A stretch of DNA of 64,000 bases from Bacteroidales bacterium (lineage in GTDB: Bacteria; Bacteroidota; Bacteroidia; Bacteroidales; UBA10428): positions 1 to 64,000 of the forward strand of contig JAFGKY010000046.1 of NCBI GenBank assembly GCA_016928305.1. Direction: 5' to 3'. The notes beneath the pieces are model-generated. The model did no database searches and was not told where the DNA came from. It saw nothing but the letters and a program-made list of their open reading frames with translations. Below are positions 50 through 17,533 of this stretch, piece after piece. Position numbers and translations under genes: made by a program. Every line of letters starts with the position of its first letter. Within the stretch, counting starts at the first letter, position 1.

Positions 50-2416
50 AAAAGTAATCCTGTACTGCATCATCGGATAAAATCCTAATTGATTAATCGT
101 TGTAATCTCATCTTTACTTTTCTTGTAATATTGCATCAATGCATTTTTGTGGTTGGTGATGTTTTCAATGAAGAACAGGAATTCATGGGTCAGGCGTTTA
201 CCATTTAATTTATAACCAAACTTAATATCAGCCTTGAAATAATCGGGGTATTTGTTTTCGTATGGATCGCTGATATCGAGAACGGTAGCCTGAATGCTGA
301 GTGAAGAATCGACATCAATCGGTATGTATCGTATACCTCCGGCCCAGGTAACTTTCAGATCCAGGGTGAGGGTCGATTTCTTCCTTATGGGAAATTCTTT
401 TCCTGCCAGTGCATTGAAGACATAGTTACCGTTAAATGCAGTATTCCTTTCTATTCCGTCGCTTCCCTTATACTTGGAATCGAACAGAGAAGCTGTGACC
501 AGATAATAATAGCCTTTGCTCAGGAATTTTTCCAATGTTATTTCGAGACCGTAATTCCGTCCGGTACCCTTGTTAACGAGACTGTCTTCAGCACCTACAC
601 CCCACCCGGCTCCGGTATTTAACAGGCTGAAATAAGTTGGACGTTGTTCAACGGGAACGTTATACAGGTACTGATAATACAATTCTGTTTTCAACCGCAT
701 ATTTTGTGTGATATTCCAATCATGACCAAGCACTATCTGCTGTGATTTTGTATATCCGATTCCGGTATTGGTTTCAACGAACCTGCCGTCAGGCAGATAG
801 GTTCCAAGGAAATAAGTGCCCAGCGAATGTGTTTTGGCATGCGTGCCATAGCCCAGATTGATGCTGCGATTTTCTCCGTATCTCCAGGATATTCCCATTC
901 GGGGTTCGATGGATGGTTTACCGGTAAGTGTATAATAAAGCGCGTGGATTCCGGGTGTGAATAACCACTTATCGGTTAATTTATAGTTAAGTTCAAAAAA
1001 TGCCCTAAACAGGTAACCACCATCACCCAGGTTTTTATTTTCCTCAATTCTTCTGATCATTCTTAAGGAATCCTGGTCATACTGGGTGGTATGCATATCA
1101 TAACCCATCTGATCGATGATTAAACCTGCTTTGGATGACAGTCCGGCATTGAATTTTGTTCCGGTAAAAGCCGAAAAAGTCAGCCTGTATTCCGAAATAC
1201 TATGATCGTAATATCGTGTTTTGTTTTTTTCAGCATCAAGGGTATCGATCTTTGTCCCACCGTTCTGATAAAAACCTGAAAGAATAACTTTTGCATACGT
1301 CTTTGAGCTTAGGTAACGCAACCAGGAAAGACCTGCAGAACCCATTGTAGAACCATTATACAAGTCCTGGCCCTCGTTGGTATACATGGCCTCATCATCA
1401 ATCTTGCTGTCCAACATGGCAACGCTGCTGATACCCCCTATCCCGAAGAATGTGACAACACCCTTTTTTACCGGGAAATTGAATTTGAATGACAGGTCCT
1501 GGTAATGCGGTACGCCCGTTGTTCCGAAATTTATTCCCAGCAAACTGACAAAGTCCATAACCGAGAACCGGTAATTTAAAAGGTACGAGCTTCGGTGTTT
1601 TTTTGACAAGGGACCTTCGGAACCCAGCTCAAGTCCGTTAAAGCCAATCTGGAAAAGATGCTCGTATTGTTCATTATTCCCGTTTCGCAATTTCAGATCA
1701 AACACACCCGACAAAGCATTGCCGTATTCAGCCGGAAATGCGCTTGTGATAAAGTCAGAATTCCGCAATACGTTATTGTTAAGCATGCTGACCGGGCCGC
1801 CGGTTGTACCATTCTCAGCAAAATGATTGGGATTGGGGAGGTCGATGTCATCAAGCCTCCACAGCAGTCCGGAGGGAGAATTACCGCGAATAACGATATC
1901 ATTGCGTGAATCGTTTGCGAACGATACGCCTGCATAGCCTGATGCCATCCGGGCAACATCACCGCGGCTTCCGGCATATTTTTCCGTTTCTTCAATGGTA
2001 AAGGAACGTGCACTGATTACTGCCATTTCATTTGCAGGCAAGCTTTTCTGGCGATCATATTGAACGACAACCTCCTCCACGCGTTGCACCATTTCTTCCA
2101 TCTCAACATTCAATACCGTTTCCTTTCCGGATATCAGGAAAAGGTTATGGAACGTTATATGCTGATATCCGAGGAACGAAATATCAAGACTCACACGCCC
2201 CAGCAGAACGCTGTCGAGTTTAAACCAGCCGTCGGAATTGGTTGTAGCACCTTTTACCGGTTTGGTGTTCAACACCACAACATTGGCACCCGGCAGCGGC
2301 TGTTGGGTGGCTTTGTCGATCACTCTTCCGCGGATGGTTTGGGAATATGGCTGGGCAAAGAGAACGGAATGAAAAATAAATAAGCTGGTTACCAGCAAGA
2401 GTACATTTTTCTTCAT
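47..2416 (-). CDS. TonB-dependent outer-membrane receptor
   Basis: A 789-residue outer-membrane receptor predicted to import a ligand across the outer membrane using TonB energy. A signal peptide (about residues 1-21, ending LFAQ) is followed by a carboxypeptidase-regulatory-like beta-sandwich (about 27-115, with GRVIDKATQQPLPGANV), a plug domain (about 125-245, with RGNSPSGLLWRLDDID) and a long beta-barrel ending in an aromatic residue (ITF). It is shorter than SusC-type receptors and no SusD partner is adjacent, so a glycan substrate cannot be inferred; a siderophore, cofactor or peptide is equally possible. It is divergent from the PAS kinase operon across about 234 bp, which could place it under that system's control, but this is inference. 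The family is clear; the substrate is unknown. Confidence 0.93.
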   Translation of the reverse strand: MKKNVLLLVTSLFIFHSVLFAQPYSQTIRGRVIDKATQQPLPGANVVVLNTKPVKGATTNSDGWFKLDSVLLGRVSLDISFLGYQHITFHNLFLISGKETVLNVEMEEMVQRVEEVVVQYDRQKSLPANEMAVISARSFTIEETEKYAGSRGDVARMASGYAGVSFANDSRNDIVIRGNSPSGLLWRLDDIDLPNPNHFAENGTTGGPVSMLNNNVLRNSDFITSAFPAEYGNALSGVFDLKLRNGNNEQYEHLFQIGFNGLELGSEGPLSKKHRSSYLLNYRFSVMDFVSLLGINFGTTGVPHYQDLSFKFNFPVKKGVVTFFGIGGISSVAMLDSKIDDEAMYTNEGQDLYNGSTMGSAGLSWLRYLSSKTYAKVILSGFYQNGGTKIDTLDAEKNKTRYYDHSISEYRLTFSAFTGTKFNAGLSSKAGLIIDQMGYDMHTTQYDQDSLRMIRRIEENKNLGDGGYLFRAFFELNYKLTDKWLFTPGIHALYYTLTGKPSIEPRMGISWRYGENRSINLGYGTHAKTHSLGTYFLGTYLPDGRFVETNTGIGYTKSQQIVLGHDWNITQNMRLKTELYYQYLYNVPVEQRPTYFSLLNTGAGWGVGAEDSLVNKGTGRNYGLEITLEKFLSKGYYYLVTASLFDSKYKGSDGIERNTAFNGNYVFNALAGKEFPIRKKSTLTLDLKVTWAGGIRYIPIDVDSSLSIQATVLDISDPYENKYPDYFKADIKFGYKLNGKRLTHEFLFFIENITNHKNALMQYYKKSKDEITTINQLGFYPMMQYRITF

Positions 2417-2442
2417 GGAGTAAGGCTAATTTTTATTAATGA

Positions 2443-2450
2443 CAAATATA
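2443..2450 (-). promoter_or_regulatory. Bacteroidetes-type -7 box for the TonB receptor
   Basis: On the minus strand this reads TATATTTG, a perfect match to the Bacteroidetes -7 consensus TAnnTTTG. It lies about 27 bp upstream of the receptor's ATG. No convincing TTTG -33 box was found at the usual spacing, so the assignment rests on the -7 element and its position. Confidence 0.45.
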
Positions 2451-2650
2451 AAATTAACAGGTTGCATTGAAGAGAAAAAGGTAAGAATAGTTTAATGACG
2501 GGCACCGGATAGTTTTTTTGCAAGCCTTCTATGCTAATTCCGCACACCCTCTATTTTTTCCTGTATTTTGAAAATACATTCCGATCAGCATGACGATGAA
2601 AAAAAAATAAACTATATTTAATTTATCAAACCAACTGTTAATTGCGAAAT

Positions 2651-4867
2651 ATGAAGGCTAACGAGAAAAGCAGGCAAAAGAAACATGCAATCAAACGCCT
2701 TTCGGCCCCCGATAAATCACAACGTAACGGATTTGCCTCAGTTGTTCAGTCAGGAGATGAATACTATAAACAAATTGTTGATTTCGCCAACGTGGCCATA
2801 GTGAAATTCGACCGGAATTTAATATTGACTGATTTTACAGGTAATTCCGAGAGTATTTTTGGTTTCAGTAAGGAAGAAGTAATTGGGAAAAGCCTTGAAG
2901 AAACCATCGTGCCCAAAGTGGAAAGTACCGGAAAAGACCTGGGAAAATTTATCAAAAGCCTGGCAAGAAAGCCCGAAGCATTTGAATATAATATCAATGA
3001 GAATATCACAAAAGACGGCAGAAGAATATGGATGCAATGGCATAACAGTGCGATAAAAGATTCCGGGAACAGGGTAACCGGTATCTTATCCATCGGCATC
3101 GATATTACCGATCTTATCAATACCGAGTTAGCCCTCAAGGAAAGCGAAGAACGTTTTAAGACCTTGTCCGATCTTACCTTTGAAGGCATTCTGATTCACG
3201 ATAATGGCATAATTCTCGATTGCAACCTGTCGTTTGAAAGACAAATTGGGTACAGCAGGGAAGAACTTATCGGTACAAATATGTTGGAAAAACTGATCCC
3301 CCAGGAGTATCATCATACGGTGCAAAATAACTTCAGGAAGGAAACGTCTCAATATGAAATAGAGGCTGTCCACAGAAACGGTACCCGTATCCCCGTTTCC
3401 ATTGAAGCCAGGCGGGCAAAGATCGGGGAAAAATCTGTCCGTGTCGCTGCCATCAGGAATATCAGTGACCTGAAGAGGACCATTAAAGAACTGGATAATT
3501 ATAAAAACCATCTGGAAGAGCTGGTCGCAAAAAGAACGGCAGAAATAAAGCTTCAATCCGAAAAACTGGCAAAACAAAACGAGTTACTCCAGTTTGAAAG
3601 GAATCAACTAAGGATCATCATCGACAATATCCCTGACTTAATTTATATTAAAGACAAGAAGAGCAGGTTCTTAAATGCCAACAGGAAACAGATAAAGCAT
3701 CTGGGAGCAAAAGATTTGCAGGATGTAATCGGAAAAACTGATTTTGATTTTTACACAGAACAGTATGCCAGTGCATATTATTCTGATGAACAACGGATTT
3801 TTAAAACCGGTGTACCCATTTTCGACAGGGAAGAACCTACCGTTAACGAAGAGGGAAAGATACTATATCTTCTGACCACCAAAGTACCATTACACGATAC
3901 GACCGGTAAAATAACCGGCATTGTTGGCATCGGCAGGGATATTACAGAGAAAAAGCTGGCAGAGAACAAGCTTAAAGAATCGAACAAAAAGCTGGAAGAT
4001 GCCAACATAATACTGAAGGAAAAAAGCCGCGAGATAGAACTGGCGCTTGATAAGCTTAAGAATGCGCAGTCGCAGTTGATACAATCCGAGAAAATGGCCT
4101 CACTGGGAGTTTTAACAGCTGGTATTGCGCATGAGATCAATAATCCGGTTAATTTTGTATACGCCGGAGTTAACAGTTTAATGAAAGATTTCAACGATAT
4201 CAAGCCTGTGCTGGAAGCCATCAACCGATTCAGTGCAACGCCTGATATCAATCATCCGGCTTTTAGAAATATTGAAGGACTGAAAAAGCAATATGACTTT
4301 GAGACAGCATATAAAGCCATCACGGAAACACTTGACGACATAAAACTTGGTGCTGCACGGATCAGTGAAATTGTAGCCGGATTGAGCCGGTTTTCAAGAA
4401 TCGAGACCGAAAAATGGAAGCGATCCGATCTGCATGAAGAAATAGACAGCGTACTGGTGCTGCTGAAAAACAAGTACAAACATCATATTGAAATACTAAA
4501 AAAATACCATGATCCATTACCCGAAGTCGAATGTCATCCGGGCAAAATGAATCAGGTATTCCTGAACGTTATTAACAACGCGATCGATGCAATTGAAGGG
4601 AAACCCGGTGTGATTACTATTGAAACAGGGGTTGCGAAAGACAGGGTAATAATTTCTGTTAAAGATACCGGAAAAGGAATAAGCGAGGATGAAAAATTGA
4701 AAATATTTGATCCGTTTTTTACCACCAAGGAAGTCGGATATGGTTTAGGACTTGGACTTGCCATAACTTATTCGATCATCCGCGAACATAATGGTGAGAT
4801 AACAGTTGATTCGACGGTTGGGAAAGGCACAACATTTAAAATTGAAATTCCTGTGGCACGATCCTGA
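2651..4867 (+). CDS. Multi-PAS sensor histidine kinase
   Basis: A 738-residue kinase without an obvious membrane segment, so probably cytosolic. The ATG at 2651 is preferred over an in-frame TTG at 2642. Three PAS modules lie at about 40-150, 165-275 and 325-440, the first two linked to the third by a coiled coil. HisKA carries the phospho-acceptor H494 in IAHEINNP. The HATPase domain has the N box (NVINNAIDA), G1 (DTGKGI) and G2 (GLGLGL). The IAHEINNP form and long HisKA insert resemble PAS kinases of the NtrB/HWE-like broad group. It is the first gene of an operon: a receiver protein starts 25 bp downstream and overlaps a receiver-kinase hybrid. The signal is unknown; PAS domains usually sense redox state, gas or small molecules. 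Confidence 0.93.
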   Translation: MKANEKSRQKKHAIKRLSAPDKSQRNGFASVVQSGDEYYKQIVDFANVAIVKFDRNLILTDFTGNSESIFGFSKEEVIGKSLEETIVPKVESTGKDLGKFIKSLARKPEAFEYNINENITKDGRRIWMQWHNSAIKDSGNRVTGILSIGIDITDLINTELALKESEERFKTLSDLTFEGILIHDNGIILDCNLSFERQIGYSREELIGTNMLEKLIPQEYHHTVQNNFRKETSQYEIEAVHRNGTRIPVSIEARRAKIGEKSVRVAAIRNISDLKRTIKELDNYKNHLEELVAKRTAEIKLQSEKLAKQNELLQFERNQLRIIIDNIPDLIYIKDKKSRFLNANRKQIKHLGAKDLQDVIGKTDFDFYTEQYASAYYSDEQRIFKTGVPIFDREEPTVNEEGKILYLLTTKVPLHDTTGKITGIVGIGRDITEKKLAENKLKESNKKLEDANIILKEKSREIELALDKLKNAQSQLIQSEKMASLGVLTAGIAHEINNPVNFVYAGVNSLMKDFNDIKPVLEAINRFSATPDINHPAFRNIEGLKKQYDFETAYKAITETLDDIKLGAARISEIVAGLSRFSRIETEKWKRSDLHEEIDSVLVLLKNKYKHHIEILKKYHDPLPEVECHPGKMNQVFLNVINNAIDAIEGKPGVITIETGVAKDRVIISVKDTGKGISEDEKLKIFDPFFTTKEVGYGLGLGLAITYSIIREHNGEITVDSTVGKGTTFKIEIPVARS

Positions 4868-14189: not shown

Positions 14190-14702
14190 ATGAAAGAGAA
14201 AGATGCTTATATCGAAAATAAAGATCATCCGGTAATACTGTACACAGAAAAAGATGATGATACTTATGGCCCGGTTTTTTCCGGAGCTGTTTCGTCGAAG
14301 GATTATATTGACGATTTCCGCACCAAGTTTAAGCATCTGGAAGAGTCTATCCTCACTAAAGTCAGATCGGGTGATACCAGCATGATATATTACTATATGA
14401 TGTTACAGGAACTGACTCCATCCGAACTGGCACATCGGATTGGTATCAGCAAATCAAAAGTTGAAAAGCATTTTCAAACAAAATATTTCATAAGAGCCCG
14501 GCTGGAAACAGTACGCAAATATGCTGAAGTCTTTAATGTTCCGGTCGCAAATTTGTTTCAGCTCATTTTAACCAAAGAAGATAATCGATGGAAGGCTCAT
14601 TATGTTGAAAATGAGGTAATAGTTGATAATCATTGCATTTCGCAACACAAAACGGATAATCCCCTTATCGTGGTCACAACAATCGAAGAAAAAGAATCAT
14701 GA
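14190..14702 (+). CDS. XRE-like helix-turn-helix protein
   Basis: A 170-residue cytosolic protein with an XRE-type HTH at about 70-120 (QELTPSELAHRIGISKSKVEKHFQ, then RKYAEVFNVPVANLFQLI). The N-terminal 60 residues and C-terminal 45 residues match nothing I know. It overlaps the BtrH-like gene by 4 bp (ATGA), so the two are translationally coupled, which makes it the likely cluster-specific regulator. DNA target and ligand are unknown. An alternative is an antitoxin-like protein, but no toxin is adjacent. Confidence 0.85.
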   Translation: MKEKDAYIENKDHPVILYTEKDDDTYGPVFSGAVSSKDYIDDFRTKFKHLEESILTKVRSGDTSMIYYYMMLQELTPSELAHRIGISKSKVEKHFQTKYFIRARLETVRKYAEVFNVPVANLFQLILTKEDNRWKAHYVENEVIVDNHCISQHKTDNPLIVVTTIEEKES

Positions 14703-15715
14703 CGCGTATTCCCTATCAGCACAAAATGGCAGCCCATTGTGAAACCGGCACGGTTTCCGGTCTCCTCAATTATAATGGTTTGTCAATTACAGAACCCATG
14801 GTCTTTGGTATTGCCAGTGGTATCTTTTTTGGATACATGAAGATGTCAAGTTTTATTTTTCCGGTATTTTTTGTACGAACCAGACCAGGAGAGATCCGTA
14901 AAAAAATTTCCAGTCGACTTGGAATTGATTTCTTTACAAAATCTTATAAAAAACCGGAAGAAGCTCAAAGAGAGCTGGACCAGTTATTGGAGAAGAATAT
15001 TCCGGTAGCTGTGAAAGTGGATTTCTTTTATATGAATTACCTTGCGCCCTGGTTGAGGGTCCATAATAATGCACATTTCATCACGGTTGTTGGAAAAGAA
15101 GATTCAACCTATTACGTGAGCGATTGCTACCACAGGGATGTCGCGGAATTGGATGCCGAAACCTTATTAAAAGCCAGGTTTGCAGGAGGGATGGAGAGTC
15201 CCAGGGGTTTTATGTTTTACCCGACCCGTATTCCAAAAGAAATCGAATTTGAGAGAAACATCATAACCGGCATCAGAAAGGCTGCTTTCAATATGCTTAA
15301 AATTCCGGTCCCTTTTCTGGGTGTTAAGGGCATAAGCCGGTTTGCCGATAAAGTGGTTGGCTGGCCTAAGCTGGCACGAGACATGGAACATTTGTCACAT
15401 GAAGTGATGCGTATCAATGTACTGCTCGAAGATCAGGGCACCGGTGGTGGTGGTTTCCGGTTTATGTATGCTACTTTTCTGCGACAGGCGTCTGAAATGC
15501 TCAGGGATGATAAGTTGCTGGAATTCTCCAAGCGGATGATGAAAATCGGCGACGATTGGAGAGGAGTCTCTGTTTATGCAATTCGAATGAACAAGGACAA
15601 GGATTTTAGTGAAGGAAGGTTTAAAGAGCTAAGCAATCGTATCAGAAATTGCGGATTCGCCGAAAAGGAAATTTTTACAGACCTATACCTATATGCCAAA
15701 AATTACAGTAAATAA
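14699..15715 (+). CDS. BtrH-type acyltransferase-like protein (BtrH_N plus DUF4872)
   Basis: 338 residues. The N-terminal half matches the BtrH N-terminal domain, a cysteine-protease-like fold: C14 in AAHCETG, E32 in ITEPMVFGIASG, H126 in NNAHFITVVG and D142 in YYVSDCYH are the expected catalytic or structural positions. The C-terminal half (about 175-335) resembles DUF4872. In butirosin biosynthesis BtrH moves an acyl group from an acyl carrier protein to the antibiotic, so the ACP encoded three genes away at 17252 is the natural acyl donor here. The acceptor is unknown. The gene overlaps the HTH gene upstream and precedes the radical SAM gene by 32 bp, giving one likely operon. Family assignment is good; the reaction is inferred. 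Confidence 0.83.
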   Translation: MTRIPYQHKMAAHCETGTVSGLLNYNGLSITEPMVFGIASGIFFGYMKMSSFIFPVFFVRTRPGEIRKKISSRLGIDFFTKSYKKPEEAQRELDQLLEKNIPVAVKVDFFYMNYLAPWLRVHNNAHFITVVGKEDSTYYVSDCYHRDVAELDAETLLKARFAGGMESPRGFMFYPTRIPKEIEFERNIITGIRKAAFNMLKIPVPFLGVKGISRFADKVVGWPKLARDMEHLSHEVMRINVLLEDQGTGGGGFRFMYATFLRQASEMLRDDKLLEFSKRMMKIGDDWRGVSVYAIRMNKDKDFSEGRFKELSNRIRNCGFAEKEIFTDLYLYAKNYSK

Positions 15716-15747
15716 TTTTCGTATCACCCCAGATTTAACTCCATAGC

Positions 15748-17016
15748 ATGAAGTTTAAGCTTATCTATCCAAAATGGCAAAAACTGGAAAGACAAACTGT
15801 TTTTAACCTTCCTCCTCACGGACCTGTGGTGTTTGCGGCATCATTACCGGCGTATGTAAATGTTGATTTTGTTGATGAAAACGTACAACCATTGGTCATC
15901 GATGATGACGTTGATATCATTGGCATTTCGATGATGCTGACTATACAGATAAAAAGGGGCTGGGAGATTGCCACCGAATACCGGAAACTGGGGAAGAAAG
16001 TTATTTTTGGCGGAATATCGACCATGCTTCATGCCGAAGAGACTATGCTATATGCCGATTCAGTTTTTCTTGGAGAATCCGAAGGCCGGATGGAGAAGGT
16101 TTTGGATGATTTCAGGCATAACCGGTTACAAAAAGTGTATGATTACCTGACGGTTCCTTGCGATATAAGTCTGGTTGGCCCGGCAAGAAGGGATATCCTC
16201 AACCATACTTTATACAATCATAAGGGAACGCAGATGGTCGACCTGTTTCATGCATCCAGAGGATGCAGGTTCAATTGTCTGCCGTGTGCTGTTTCGTATC
16301 TTGGGGGACGGCGTTTCAGGCCCCGGCCGATAGAAAAGTCCGTTGAAGAACTGGAAAAAATTGATAATAACCGGCTTTTCATTGTCGACAATTCGCTGGC
16401 ACAAGATACCCGGTGGGAAAAAGACTTGTTTAAAGCCATGATCCCCCTCAGGAAAAAATGGTGCAGTCACCCTATTGAAGATAAGCCCGAAATTCTTGAT
16501 CTTGCGGCACAGGCCGGTGCCTGGTATGTGTACCAGGCAGTGTTTGATACATCCGATTTCATCAAAGAAAGGATTAAACGGTACCACGATTATGGCATTG
16601 CTGTTGAAGGAACAATTCTGCTGGGCTTTGATGATCATGACGAAGATTATATAAGGCGCTTAATCGACTTCCTGCTGGAAATTAACCTCGACCTTGCAGA
16701 ATTTACAGTGCTGACGCCGTTCCCGCATACCAGGATATACGAGAACTTAAAAAAAGAGAACCGCATTTTTAATTTCGATTGGAACGACTATACAGCCGGA
16801 AAAGTAGTCTATCAACCCAAACAAATGACCGCCGAGCGATTGCAGGAACTCTATTATTATGCATGGGATACGTTTTATAAAGAGGAAAGTCAGAATATTA
16901 AAATGCTGAAACTATTTCATAAGGTCGTCATGAAAGAAAAGGCTGATGGTTCTTATAAATCAAGAAAAACAGAACTGATTACCGCCAGTTTCGGAAAAGA
17001 TGTATTCAATACATAA
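15748..17016 (+). CDS. B12-binding-like radical SAM enzyme
   Basis: 422 residues. The N-terminal 140 residues have the Rossmann-like B12-binding layout (VDIIGISMMLTIQIKRGWEI, GKKVIFGGISTMLHAEE, ADSVFLGESEG), but the DxHxxG cobalt-ligand motif is absent: the region reads VDENVQPL. The radical SAM core starts at HASRGCRFNCLPC with cluster cysteines C173, C177 and C180, followed by the usual glycine-rich and beta-strand features (EGTILLGFDDHD, TPFPHTRIYENL). Similar proteins carry out methylations, ring contractions and other difficult steps. Next to an ACP and a BtrH-like acyltransferase, it may modify an ACP-bound acyl chain or the acyl acceptor. The substrate is not predictable. Confidence 0.88.
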   Translation: MKFKLIYPKWQKLERQTVFNLPPHGPVVFAASLPAYVNVDFVDENVQPLVIDDDVDIIGISMMLTIQIKRGWEIATEYRKLGKKVIFGGISTMLHAEETMLYADSVFLGESEGRMEKVLDDFRHNRLQKVYDYLTVPCDISLVGPARRDILNHTLYNHKGTQMVDLFHASRGCRFNCLPCAVSYLGGRRFRPRPIEKSVEELEKIDNNRLFIVDNSLAQDTRWEKDLFKAMIPLRKKWCSHPIEDKPEILDLAAQAGAWYVYQAVFDTSDFIKERIKRYHDYGIAVEGTILLGFDDHDEDYIRRLIDFLLEINLDLAEFTVLTPFPHTRIYENLKKENRIFNFDWNDYTAGKVVYQPKQMTAERLQELYYYAWDTFYKEESQNIKMLKLFHKVVMKEKADGSYKSRKTELITASFGKDVFNT

Positions 17017-17137
17017 CATGAAGTGCAATGTTTCTTATCCTGAATGGCATGCCGTAAAAATTTTAATACGTTGTAACATGAAATATTCTTGTAGATAAAA
17101 GAATTTCACAAAATGGATATTGTTAAAGAAAAGGTTT

Positions 17138-17145
17138 TATTTTTG
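17138..17145 (+). promoter_or_regulatory. -7 box TATTTTTG upstream of the ACP gene
   Basis: A perfect TAnnTTTG box with TTG at 17120 (15-bp spacer, short). It implies the ACP can be transcribed separately from the upstream three genes and leaves a leader of about 100 nt that contains a 19-codon reading frame. Confidence 0.4.
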
Positions 17146-17154
17146 CATCTCACC

Positions 17155-17214
17155 ATGATTCGGGTGACAGGTTGTGTAACTCAGGATATTGAAAACATTG
17201 CCGGTTACGAATGA
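17155..17214 (+). CDS. Possible 19-residue leader peptide
   Basis: A short frame, MIRVTGCVTQDIENIAGYE, begins about 10 bp after a -7 box and ends 37 bp before the ACP start. It is too short for coding statistics, has one cysteine and ends in GYE. It could be a regulatory leader, a tiny peptide substrate for the neighbouring radical SAM protein, or chance. No Shine-Dalgarno sequence is visible, as is usual in this phylum. Confidence 0.2.
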   Translation: MIRVTGCVTQDIENIAGYE

Positions 17215-17251
17215 ATGGAGGGGAAAGTATTATCATTATAATTGATTGTAA

Positions 17252-17533
17252 ATGTCAGACAGTAACGTAACGGAATTAAAACGGGAGATTAAAGTTTTAA
17301 TAATAGAGACAACAAAAATACCAGGTATAACACCCGAGACCATTGCGAATGATACGCCGCTTTTTGGAGAAGGTCTGGGTATTGATTCGATCGATGCCAT
17401 AGAGATTGTGCTGGCGCTGCAACAAAAATATGGTATCCGAATTGACGATCAGAACCTGGCCCGCTTTATTTTACAGTCTGTTGATACGATCGCCGATTTC
17501 GTGCAAAAAGAGACATCGAAGCAAGCGTGGTGA
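17252..17533 (+). CDS. Acyl carrier protein
   Basis: A 93-residue ACP with the phosphopantetheine attachment serine S46 in GLGIDSIDAIE and the usual helix pattern on either side. It is not the primary fatty-acid AcpP: the DSID form and divergent flanks resemble ACPs in secondary-metabolite, aryl-polyene or flexirubin-type clusters. No ketosynthase, adenylation enzyme or phosphopantetheinyl transferase is encoded in the window, so loading must come from elsewhere. It is separated from the radical SAM gene by 235 bp and from transketolase by 43 bp. It probably carries the acyl group used by the BtrH-like protein at 14699. Confidence 0.93.
   Translation: MSDSNVTELKREIKVLIIETTKIPGITPETIANDTPLFGEGLGIDSIDAIEIVLALQQKYGIRIDDQNLARFILQSVDTIADFVQKETSKQAW

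Follow-up and report, generated by a model that had tools for sequence, protein, structure and literature searches.

In the BtrH, CcbD/LmbD and CtaG systems, as far as the sources cited here describe them, the acyl donor sits on a carrier protein. CcbD is reported to employ Cys, His and Glu in a ping-pong reaction whose donor is a carrier protein (PMC12945683), and for CtaG the transfer of a 4-hydroxybenzoyl group from a carrier protein to a chain held on a second carrier has been proposed (PMC6772006). A BtrH-like protein is also listed, as darE, in the account of an Azoarcus resorcinol cluster (PMC3949708). The family member of classical flexirubin loci is DarH, encoded in a coupled DarG-DarH pair that usually stands after DarB and before ATP-binding cassette (ABC) genes. 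Here we examine a 64-kb stretch of Bacteroidales DNA (contig JAFGKY010000046.1, positions 1 to 64,000; hereafter the window), in which four consecutive genes encode a DarG-like protein (DarG2), a DarH relative (DarH2), a B12-type radical S-adenosylmethionine (radical SAM) protein and an acyl carrier protein (ACP), ACP2.

It appears moderately likely that these genes are a second, dispersed copy of an ACP offloading module belonging to a variant flexirubin-type aryl-polyene pathway. Such a module would consist of DarG2, DarH2 and ACP2, joined by the one close copy that the genome has of the pathway's B12-type radical SAM enzyme. DarH2 would act by a cysteine ping-pong mechanism like that of CcbD: Cys14 would accept an acyl chain, most likely an aryl polyene, from an ACP thioester, and DarH2, by analogy with that enzyme, would pass it on to an acceptor that is probably something other than a dialkylresorcinol.

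DarH2 and its relation to the DarH of flexirubin loci

DarH2 passes the NCBIfam equivalog model for DarH (NF053550; 304.0 bits, cut-off 300) and scores far above the Pfam cut-offs for BtrH_N (PF14399; 130 bits versus 29.7) and DUF4872 (148 versus 28). Against the same DarH model, seven DarH2 relatives score 302-330 bits and seven genus-mate loci 450-466 bits. The residues C14, E32, H126 and D142, which the original prediction named for its BtrH-type acyltransferase-like protein, are invariant in all 31 DarH2 proteins aligned. In a larger set of 88 rows, classical DarH among them, all 80 rows that reach C14 and E32 conserve both (the other 8 being too short because of start choice), while H126 is conserved in 88 of 88 and D142 in 86 of 88. 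The predicted structure (pLDDT 91.8) matches CtaG (Z 23-24), AziU3 (Z 23-24) and CcbD (Z 22-23) over nearly its full length, at 12-17% identity. In a weak profile match to CtaG (E 0.024), H126 and D142 align with a His and an Asp, which would be H128 and D144 if the chain has six extra leading residues; C11, H128 and D144 are the positions mutated in the deposited CtaG structures. Family scores, invariant residues and predicted fold all bear out the BtrH-type assignment, and fold and residues agree with DarH2 being a carrier-protein acyltransferase.

Like BtrH, CcbD/LmbD and CtaG, DarH2 thus combines a predicted papain-like fold (nearly full length against CtaG and CcbD) with a catalytic Cys and His, although identity to CtaG and CcbD is only 12-14% and the likeness to BtrH comes from family membership, not from a structure comparison. 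The acceptor of CcbD/LmbD is described as an amine, an amino sugar. We take the acceptors of BtrH (an aminoglycoside) and CtaG (carrier-bound beta-alanine) to be amines too, partly on the strength of proposals. By analogy, it is also possible that DarH2 moves an acyl group between two carriers.

A tree of DarH proteins, which came with a warning of long branches, separates a classical group of 37 rows (support 99/97) from a DarH2 group of 47 rows (90/89); four distant rows from two genomes (G001 and G002) fall outside both groups. This topology argues, with moderate strength, for DarH2 being a subfamily sister to the DarH of classical flexirubin loci. For comparison of gene neighbourhoods we used 46 DarH2 loci, found by scanning GTDB species genomes with two peptide patterns from three DarH proteins, so that the subfamily is over-represented by design (locus L105 is on the same contig as L087 of genome G020, and is the same gene as L047). 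Loci of the classical type, for example L088 and L089, share with DarH2 loci the protein family, the coupled gene order and, in many cases, adjacent ABC genes. However, they usually lack an ACP2-type gene directly after DarH, whereas DarH2 loci have ACP2 in that position, often a sulfotransferase-like and a radical SAM gene, and no DarA or DarB nearby. The window cassette itself is without ABC and sulfotransferase genes.

The distribution of DarB bears on whether DarH2 simply performs ordinary flexirubin chemistry, that is, esterifies a polyene to a dialkylresorcinol, with DarA and DarB merely missing from the draft genome. Neither DarA nor DarB occurs at 40% identity or more in any of the 46 DarH2 loci; DarB lies inside 19 of 23 classical DarH windows of 18-20 kb. 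A search of the 46 DarH2 genomes for DarB (E ≤ 1e-20) matched 12, comprising nine true DarB (49-54% identity) and three remote proteins (25-27%). True DarB is therefore missing in 37, although some of these absences may be gaps, since the completeness of the genomes was not given. The radical SAM orthologue is found in the loci of eight of the nine DarB genomes, compared with 13 of the 37 others. Ordinary flexirubin chemistry would fit the passing DarH score, the nine DarB genomes and seven genus-mate loci (L040-L046) in which DarB adjoins a classical DarH. Set against it are the DarA- and DarB-free DarH2 loci, the 37 genomes without true DarB, and a locus (L133) that keeps a classical DarG-DarH pair beside DarG2-DarH2, and we regard it as distinctly unlikely.

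Pathway genes in the window organism and in its relatives

The window organism has a draft genome (completeness 93.75%, contamination 6.77%), in which pathway genes are found on several other contigs. Contig C3 carries a second BtrH_N gene, encoding a DarH 57% identical to DarH2, in the order ABC ATPase, ABC permease, DarG, DarH, ACP and sulfotransferase, with a methyltransferase-like gene upstream on the opposite strand. A gene for a nickel-dependent putative hexonate epimerase (NF052594; 639 versus 500 bits) also lies upstream of this cassette (L003 7083-8351). Contig C26 encodes FlxY (700 bits, cut-off 520) and three ketosynthase matches as well as, by eye or low-scoring match, ACP, deacetylase, phytoene-desaturase-like and C45-type genes. 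On contig C158, FlxA (799 bits, cut-off 700) and FlxB (409, cut-off 340) adjoin a ketosynthase. Contig C82 (L085 7134-19809) holds ketosynthase III (KSIII), ketosynthase, ACP-like, malonyltransferase-like and hydratase genes with three radical SAM genes; we call this set 'lad' because its radical SAM protein rSAM2 is closest to the ladderane-type family TIGR04072, though under its cut-off (334.6 versus 360 bits). The names deacetylase, LolA-like, C45, LPLAT, flavodoxin, lad ACP and lad thioesterase are by-eye labels with no family search behind them.

Since FlxA, FlxB and FlxY all exceed their cut-offs, the genome seems, by its sequence, to encode a flexirubin-type polyene pathway, with the genes off the window contig. 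DarB was not found in this draft genome, the best match (28% identity) being the lad KSIII, which itself scores best against the StlD/DarB family though far below cut-off; DarA was sought in the DarH2 loci only. The classical dialkylresorcinol arrangement of DarA and DarB with DarG-DarH thus appears to be lacking from the draft. It is this combination, of FlxA, FlxB, FlxY and ketosynthases with no DarB found, that argues for an acceptor other than a dialkylresorcinol.

The 46 DarH2 loci come mostly from Bacteroidales drafts, with single ones labelled delta proteobacterium, Kiritimatiellia, Calditrichaceae, Victivallales and Hydrogenedentota. Two of the drafts with DarH2 and without DarB, L123 and L130, bear the label Draconibacterium orientale. 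A DarG homologue lies directly upstream of DarH in all 46, and ACP2 comes next after DarH in 40 of the 43 with at least 400 nt downstream (the exceptions being L097, L138 and L141). FlxY-like genes occur in 18 loci, ketosynthases in 10 and FlxA-type lyases in five, with at least one of these three in 28; such counts are lower bounds, because many contigs are short. The radical SAM orthologue (64-73% identity) is present in 21 loci, all with DarG-DarH and with the same small gene beside it, and most with further cluster genes. Several loci show these parts together: FlxA (822 bits, cut-off 700) and FlxB (388, cut-off 340) are over cut-off in L107 and FlxY (702, cut-off 520) in L121, and in L100 a single cluster contains both C26-type ketosynthase genes and ABC-DarG-DarH-ACP. 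These linked loci suggest that the window's genes belong to flexirubin-like clusters elsewhere, the parts of which are split over contigs in the window organism.

Two further observations concern these loci. The small gene encodes a protein of about 117-129 aa (e.g. L107 12647-13036), of which the L110 copy has no Pfam or NCBIfam match; it is not found beside the window radical SAM gene. In L133, the classical DarG-DarH pair and a DarG2-DarH2-ACP2-sulfotransferase-radical SAM cluster are on opposite strands, with FlxA/FlxB-type genes between them.

The original prediction took the four genes to be a self-contained minimal acyl-modification pathway without a ketosynthase, and named unlinked relatives or membership in a flexirubin or aryl-polyene locus as what would speak against it. 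In such a pathway ACP2 would be loaded from primary metabolism, the radical SAM enzyme would modify the acyl group and DarH2 would transfer it. Reference polyene, ABC and lipid proteins do find no biosynthetic neighbours in the window, and DarG, DarH, ACP2 and radical SAM genes stand in a row in L136, L137 and L139. But L136 and L139 also contain KSIII and malonyltransferase-like genes and L137 a second radical SAM gene, the 21 loci with a close orthologue have the company described above, and flexirubin-type genes are present in the organism's own genome. We therefore consider such a pathway very unlikely. What speaks against self-containment is the paralogous cassette on C3, the flx genes on other contigs and the clusters seen in relatives. 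The stated lack of ketosynthase, adenylation domain and transporter is in keeping with the window, where reference ketosynthase, FlxY and ABC proteins (the one transporter kind sought) gave no match at E ≤ 1e-8, but not for the genome, which has ketosynthase and ABC genes on other contigs. Linkage in relatives was likewise seen for DarG-DarH-ACP, with the radical SAM orthologue in just 21 of 46 loci. Flexirubin-locus membership was largely found, with FlxY in L121, FlxA and FlxB in L107, ketosynthase and ABC genes in relatives and the corresponding parts on the organism's own contigs; it was not complete, because DarH2 loci, having no DarA or DarB nearby, are not classical.

Several points weigh against assigning the window genes to a variant flexirubin-type pathway. 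The 90/89 support for the DarH2 side of the tree is moderate, below the mark that the tree tool sets for firm support. DarH2 of the window pairs with L097 (99/96), in another sub-lineage than the C3 copy; it thus did not arise from the C3 gene by recent duplication, and its substrate may differ from that of the C3 copy. The missing DarB may be missing sequence, as the genome is a draft, and the join of polyene to resorcinol has been assigned to FlxW in the account that we consulted (PMC3992019). Within 9 kb, 18 of the 46 loci are without FlxY, FlxA-type lyase or ketosynthase, partly owing to short contigs. The gene order of the window, with the radical SAM gene before the ACP gene and neither sulfotransferase nor ABC genes, was not seen in any of the 46 loci; in L138, DarH is also followed by a radical SAM gene, though not by the same one. 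Finally, reference polyene proteins found no polyene gene in the 64-kb window, and for this reason we infer from genome content that the contigs act in one pathway. The donor ACP, the acyl chain, the acceptor and the part played by the radical SAM enzyme are likewise inferences, set beside genes, residues, a predicted fold, relatives, linkage in those relatives and positions of the other parts in the genome that are all read directly from the data.

A sulfotransferase-like gene is present in 30 of the 46 DarH2 loci, as well as on C3. Solved sulfotransferases, CurM among them, are matched by its profile, which makes sulfation of the product a possibility. The same gene could have another function, in which the linked sulfotransferase activates a hydroxyl group and DarH2 closes a ring by displacing the sulfate, as has been implicated for AziU3/U2 in the account given in PMC12559475. 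AziU3 is indeed among the near full-length structural matches of DarH2. Nevertheless, the Cys, His and Asp that serve in acyl transfer are all retained in DarH2, the window cassette has no sulfotransferase, and the precedent needs an amine nucleophile, for which no amine-forming gene was recognised by eye (no search was made). Sulfate displacement therefore strikes us as highly improbable.

The four-gene cassette

All four genes lie where they had been predicted, with intact open reading frames (Table 1). The DarG2 and DarH2 frames share 4 nt and a 32-nt gap separates DarH2 from the radical SAM gene. One simple Bacteroidota promoter pattern, a weak test, had no match near DarG2 or in the gap before the ACP gene.

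Table 1. Coordinates of the cassette in the window
Feature	Position	Strand	Basis
DarG2, DarG-like with Cro/C1-type helix-turn-helix (HTH) core	14190..14702	+	Open reading frame of 170 aa; structural model; DarG position in relatives
DarH2, predicted BtrH_N + DUF4872 cysteine acyltransferase	14699..15715	+	Open reading frame of 338 aa; Pfam, NCBIfam, predicted structure
B12-type radical SAM protein, CX3CX2C at residues 173-180	15748..17016	+	Open reading frame of 422 aa; orthologue alignment
235-nt gap, radical SAM gene to ACP gene	17017..17251	.	Intergenic
ACP2, acyl carrier protein, phosphopantetheine site S46	17252..17533	+	Open reading frame of 93 aa; PP-binding

DarG2 scores below both NCBIfam models for DarG (NF053545, 50.3 bits versus 170; NF053536, 48.4 versus 70), and its HTH is weak in sequence (HTH_26, 21.7 versus 22). 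Its structural model is confident at residues 50-125, and the matches of the model are mostly Cro/C1-type HTH proteins, all at E >0.001. Homology and position agree with DarG2 being a DarG homologue, though by the NCBIfam models it is no member. The coupled HTH protein that had been proposed ahead of the BtrH gene is thus supported by the HTH-fold core of the model and the overlap of the frames, its role as a regulator being that of a candidate only. Besides many Xre-type regulators, the DarG2 model also weakly resembles parts of the phosphonate enzymes HEPD and MPnS, with weak E-values.

The radical SAM protein falls just under the Pfam cut-offs for B12-binding (28.7 versus 32.1 bits) and Radical_SAM (26.2 versus 29.5). 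However, both domains match all 17 members of the orthologue alignment, including the window protein, at E ≤ 0.01, which upholds the predicted B12-like domain, and C173, C177 and C180 are invariant in all 17. The protein is far under the cut-off of TIGR04072 (40.8 versus 360 bits), and its next best copy in the genome is 30% identical. Sampled searches with the protein returned no more than 37% identity outside its own genome, the orthologues surfacing only through the DarH search. Among solved structures, its profile matches only 6fd2 at E ≤ 0.001, an apramycin biosynthesis enzyme that we take to be AprD4. ACP2 scores 43 bits against PP-binding (cut-off 20.8); alignment confirms S46 as its phosphopantetheine site, in a motif [DN]S[ILV][DE] that is present in 45 of 45 ACP2 rows, 44 of them with D.

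The state of the cassette raises the question of whether it is a remnant, that is, a duplicate or horizontally gained fragment whose frames are intact but which today does no more than duplicate the C3 cassette. The ABC transporter, the sulfotransferase and the small gene of relatives are all missing here, and ACP2 is set off by the 235-nt gap, much as the ACP of the closest relative, L097, is displaced by about 1.9 kb. Yet all four frames are full length with their catalytic residues conserved, and the genome has no second close copy of the radical SAM gene, so that we regard a remnant as rather unlikely. In L097, a 289-aa protein and two small open reading frames (1814-3560) lie between DarH and ACP, where the window has the radical SAM gene.

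Contamination was considered as the source of the window contig and rejected. The transketolase adjoining the cassette is 84-87% identical to those of genus mates G021, G019 (partial) and G020 (two pieces, 86% and 77%), 74-79% to those of six other genus mates and 80% to that of G003, from another genus, and the composition of the cassette is inside the spread of window chunks. On these grounds the contig is judged native, though not proven to be so.

A ladderane-like gene set and the DarH2 variant

The lad genes of contig C82 have counterparts beside some DarH2 loci. Counting lad genes at 40% identity or more, we read 12 DarH2 genomes beyond the first 9 kb, ten of them DarB-less and two with DarB. 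These 12 are the ones whose contig agreed in length with the known contig; ten others that disagreed were excluded (G759:C12, G766:C49, G789:C41, G763:C30, G754:C48, G767:C44, G756:C35, G758:C12, G770:C170 and G761:C84). In seven of the ten DarB-less genomes, at least two lad genes lie upstream of the radical SAM gene, with five to ten per stretch in L146, L150, L151, L152, L153 and L160 and two in L154. Of the other three, L128, extended by about 1 kb (L156), has a single lad gene, whereas L098, read on the downstream side alone (L159), and L140, for which L155 added no sequence, have none. No lad gene was found in the stretches read from the two DarB-bearing genomes, L107 (L163 and L164) and L110 (L161 and L162).

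All seven lad-bearing genomes fall within one subclade of the DarH tree and do not count as independent cases. Among the 46 loci as first collected, L133, L136, L137 and L139, from other parts of the tree, also have at least two lad genes. In L136, L137 and L139, which are from outside Bacteroidota, a TIGR04072-like radical SAM gene (319-327 bits, cut-off 360) directly follows DarG-DarH-ACP2; lad rSAM2 proteins overall score 319-335 bits, just under that cut-off. As a control, none of the 23 classical windows contains a lad gene, nor do 40 further stretches, mostly of 20 kb, flanking 22 of those 23 loci, a comparison that cannot separate linkage from the lad set being absent in those genomes.

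Proposed ladderane or polyunsaturated hydrocarbon clusters of anammox bacteria and Desulfotalea are described as containing radical SAM genes along with genes for divergent FabF, phytoene-desaturase-like and phenylacetyl-CoA-ligase-like proteins, with neither the pathway nor its enzymes proven in these accounts (PMC2649909, PMC4790861). This mix is comparable to the lad set linked to some DarH2 loci, a likeness drawn from the published descriptions and not from sequence; DarH is not named in the descriptions compared. We tentatively suggest, as a possibility rather than a likelihood, a hybrid pathway in which an aryl polyene or other acyl chain is joined to a lad-set lipid in place of a dialkylresorcinol. 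The lad genes would replace DarA and DarB, DarG2 and DarH2 with a dedicated ACP would replace DarG and DarH, and sulfation would follow; outside Bacteroidota, DarH2-ACP2 and the lad set alone would offload a radical-SAM-modified lipid.

What is most likely new here is the variant itself: a sister branch of DarH with its own ACP, mostly without DarB and tied in several lineages to radical-SAM lipid genes. We did not find it in the titles and abstracts turned up by our searches of open-access literature, a coverage outside which subscription journals mostly fall. Gene clusters of Bacteroidales evidently bring FlxY and several radical SAM genes together with an offloading enzyme of their own, and predicting flexirubin from DarH or FlxY alone may mislead where DarB is absent. 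If the partner is indeed a radical-SAM-modified lipid, DarH2, with a product that can be captured and weighed, would offer a handle on ladderane-like chemistry.

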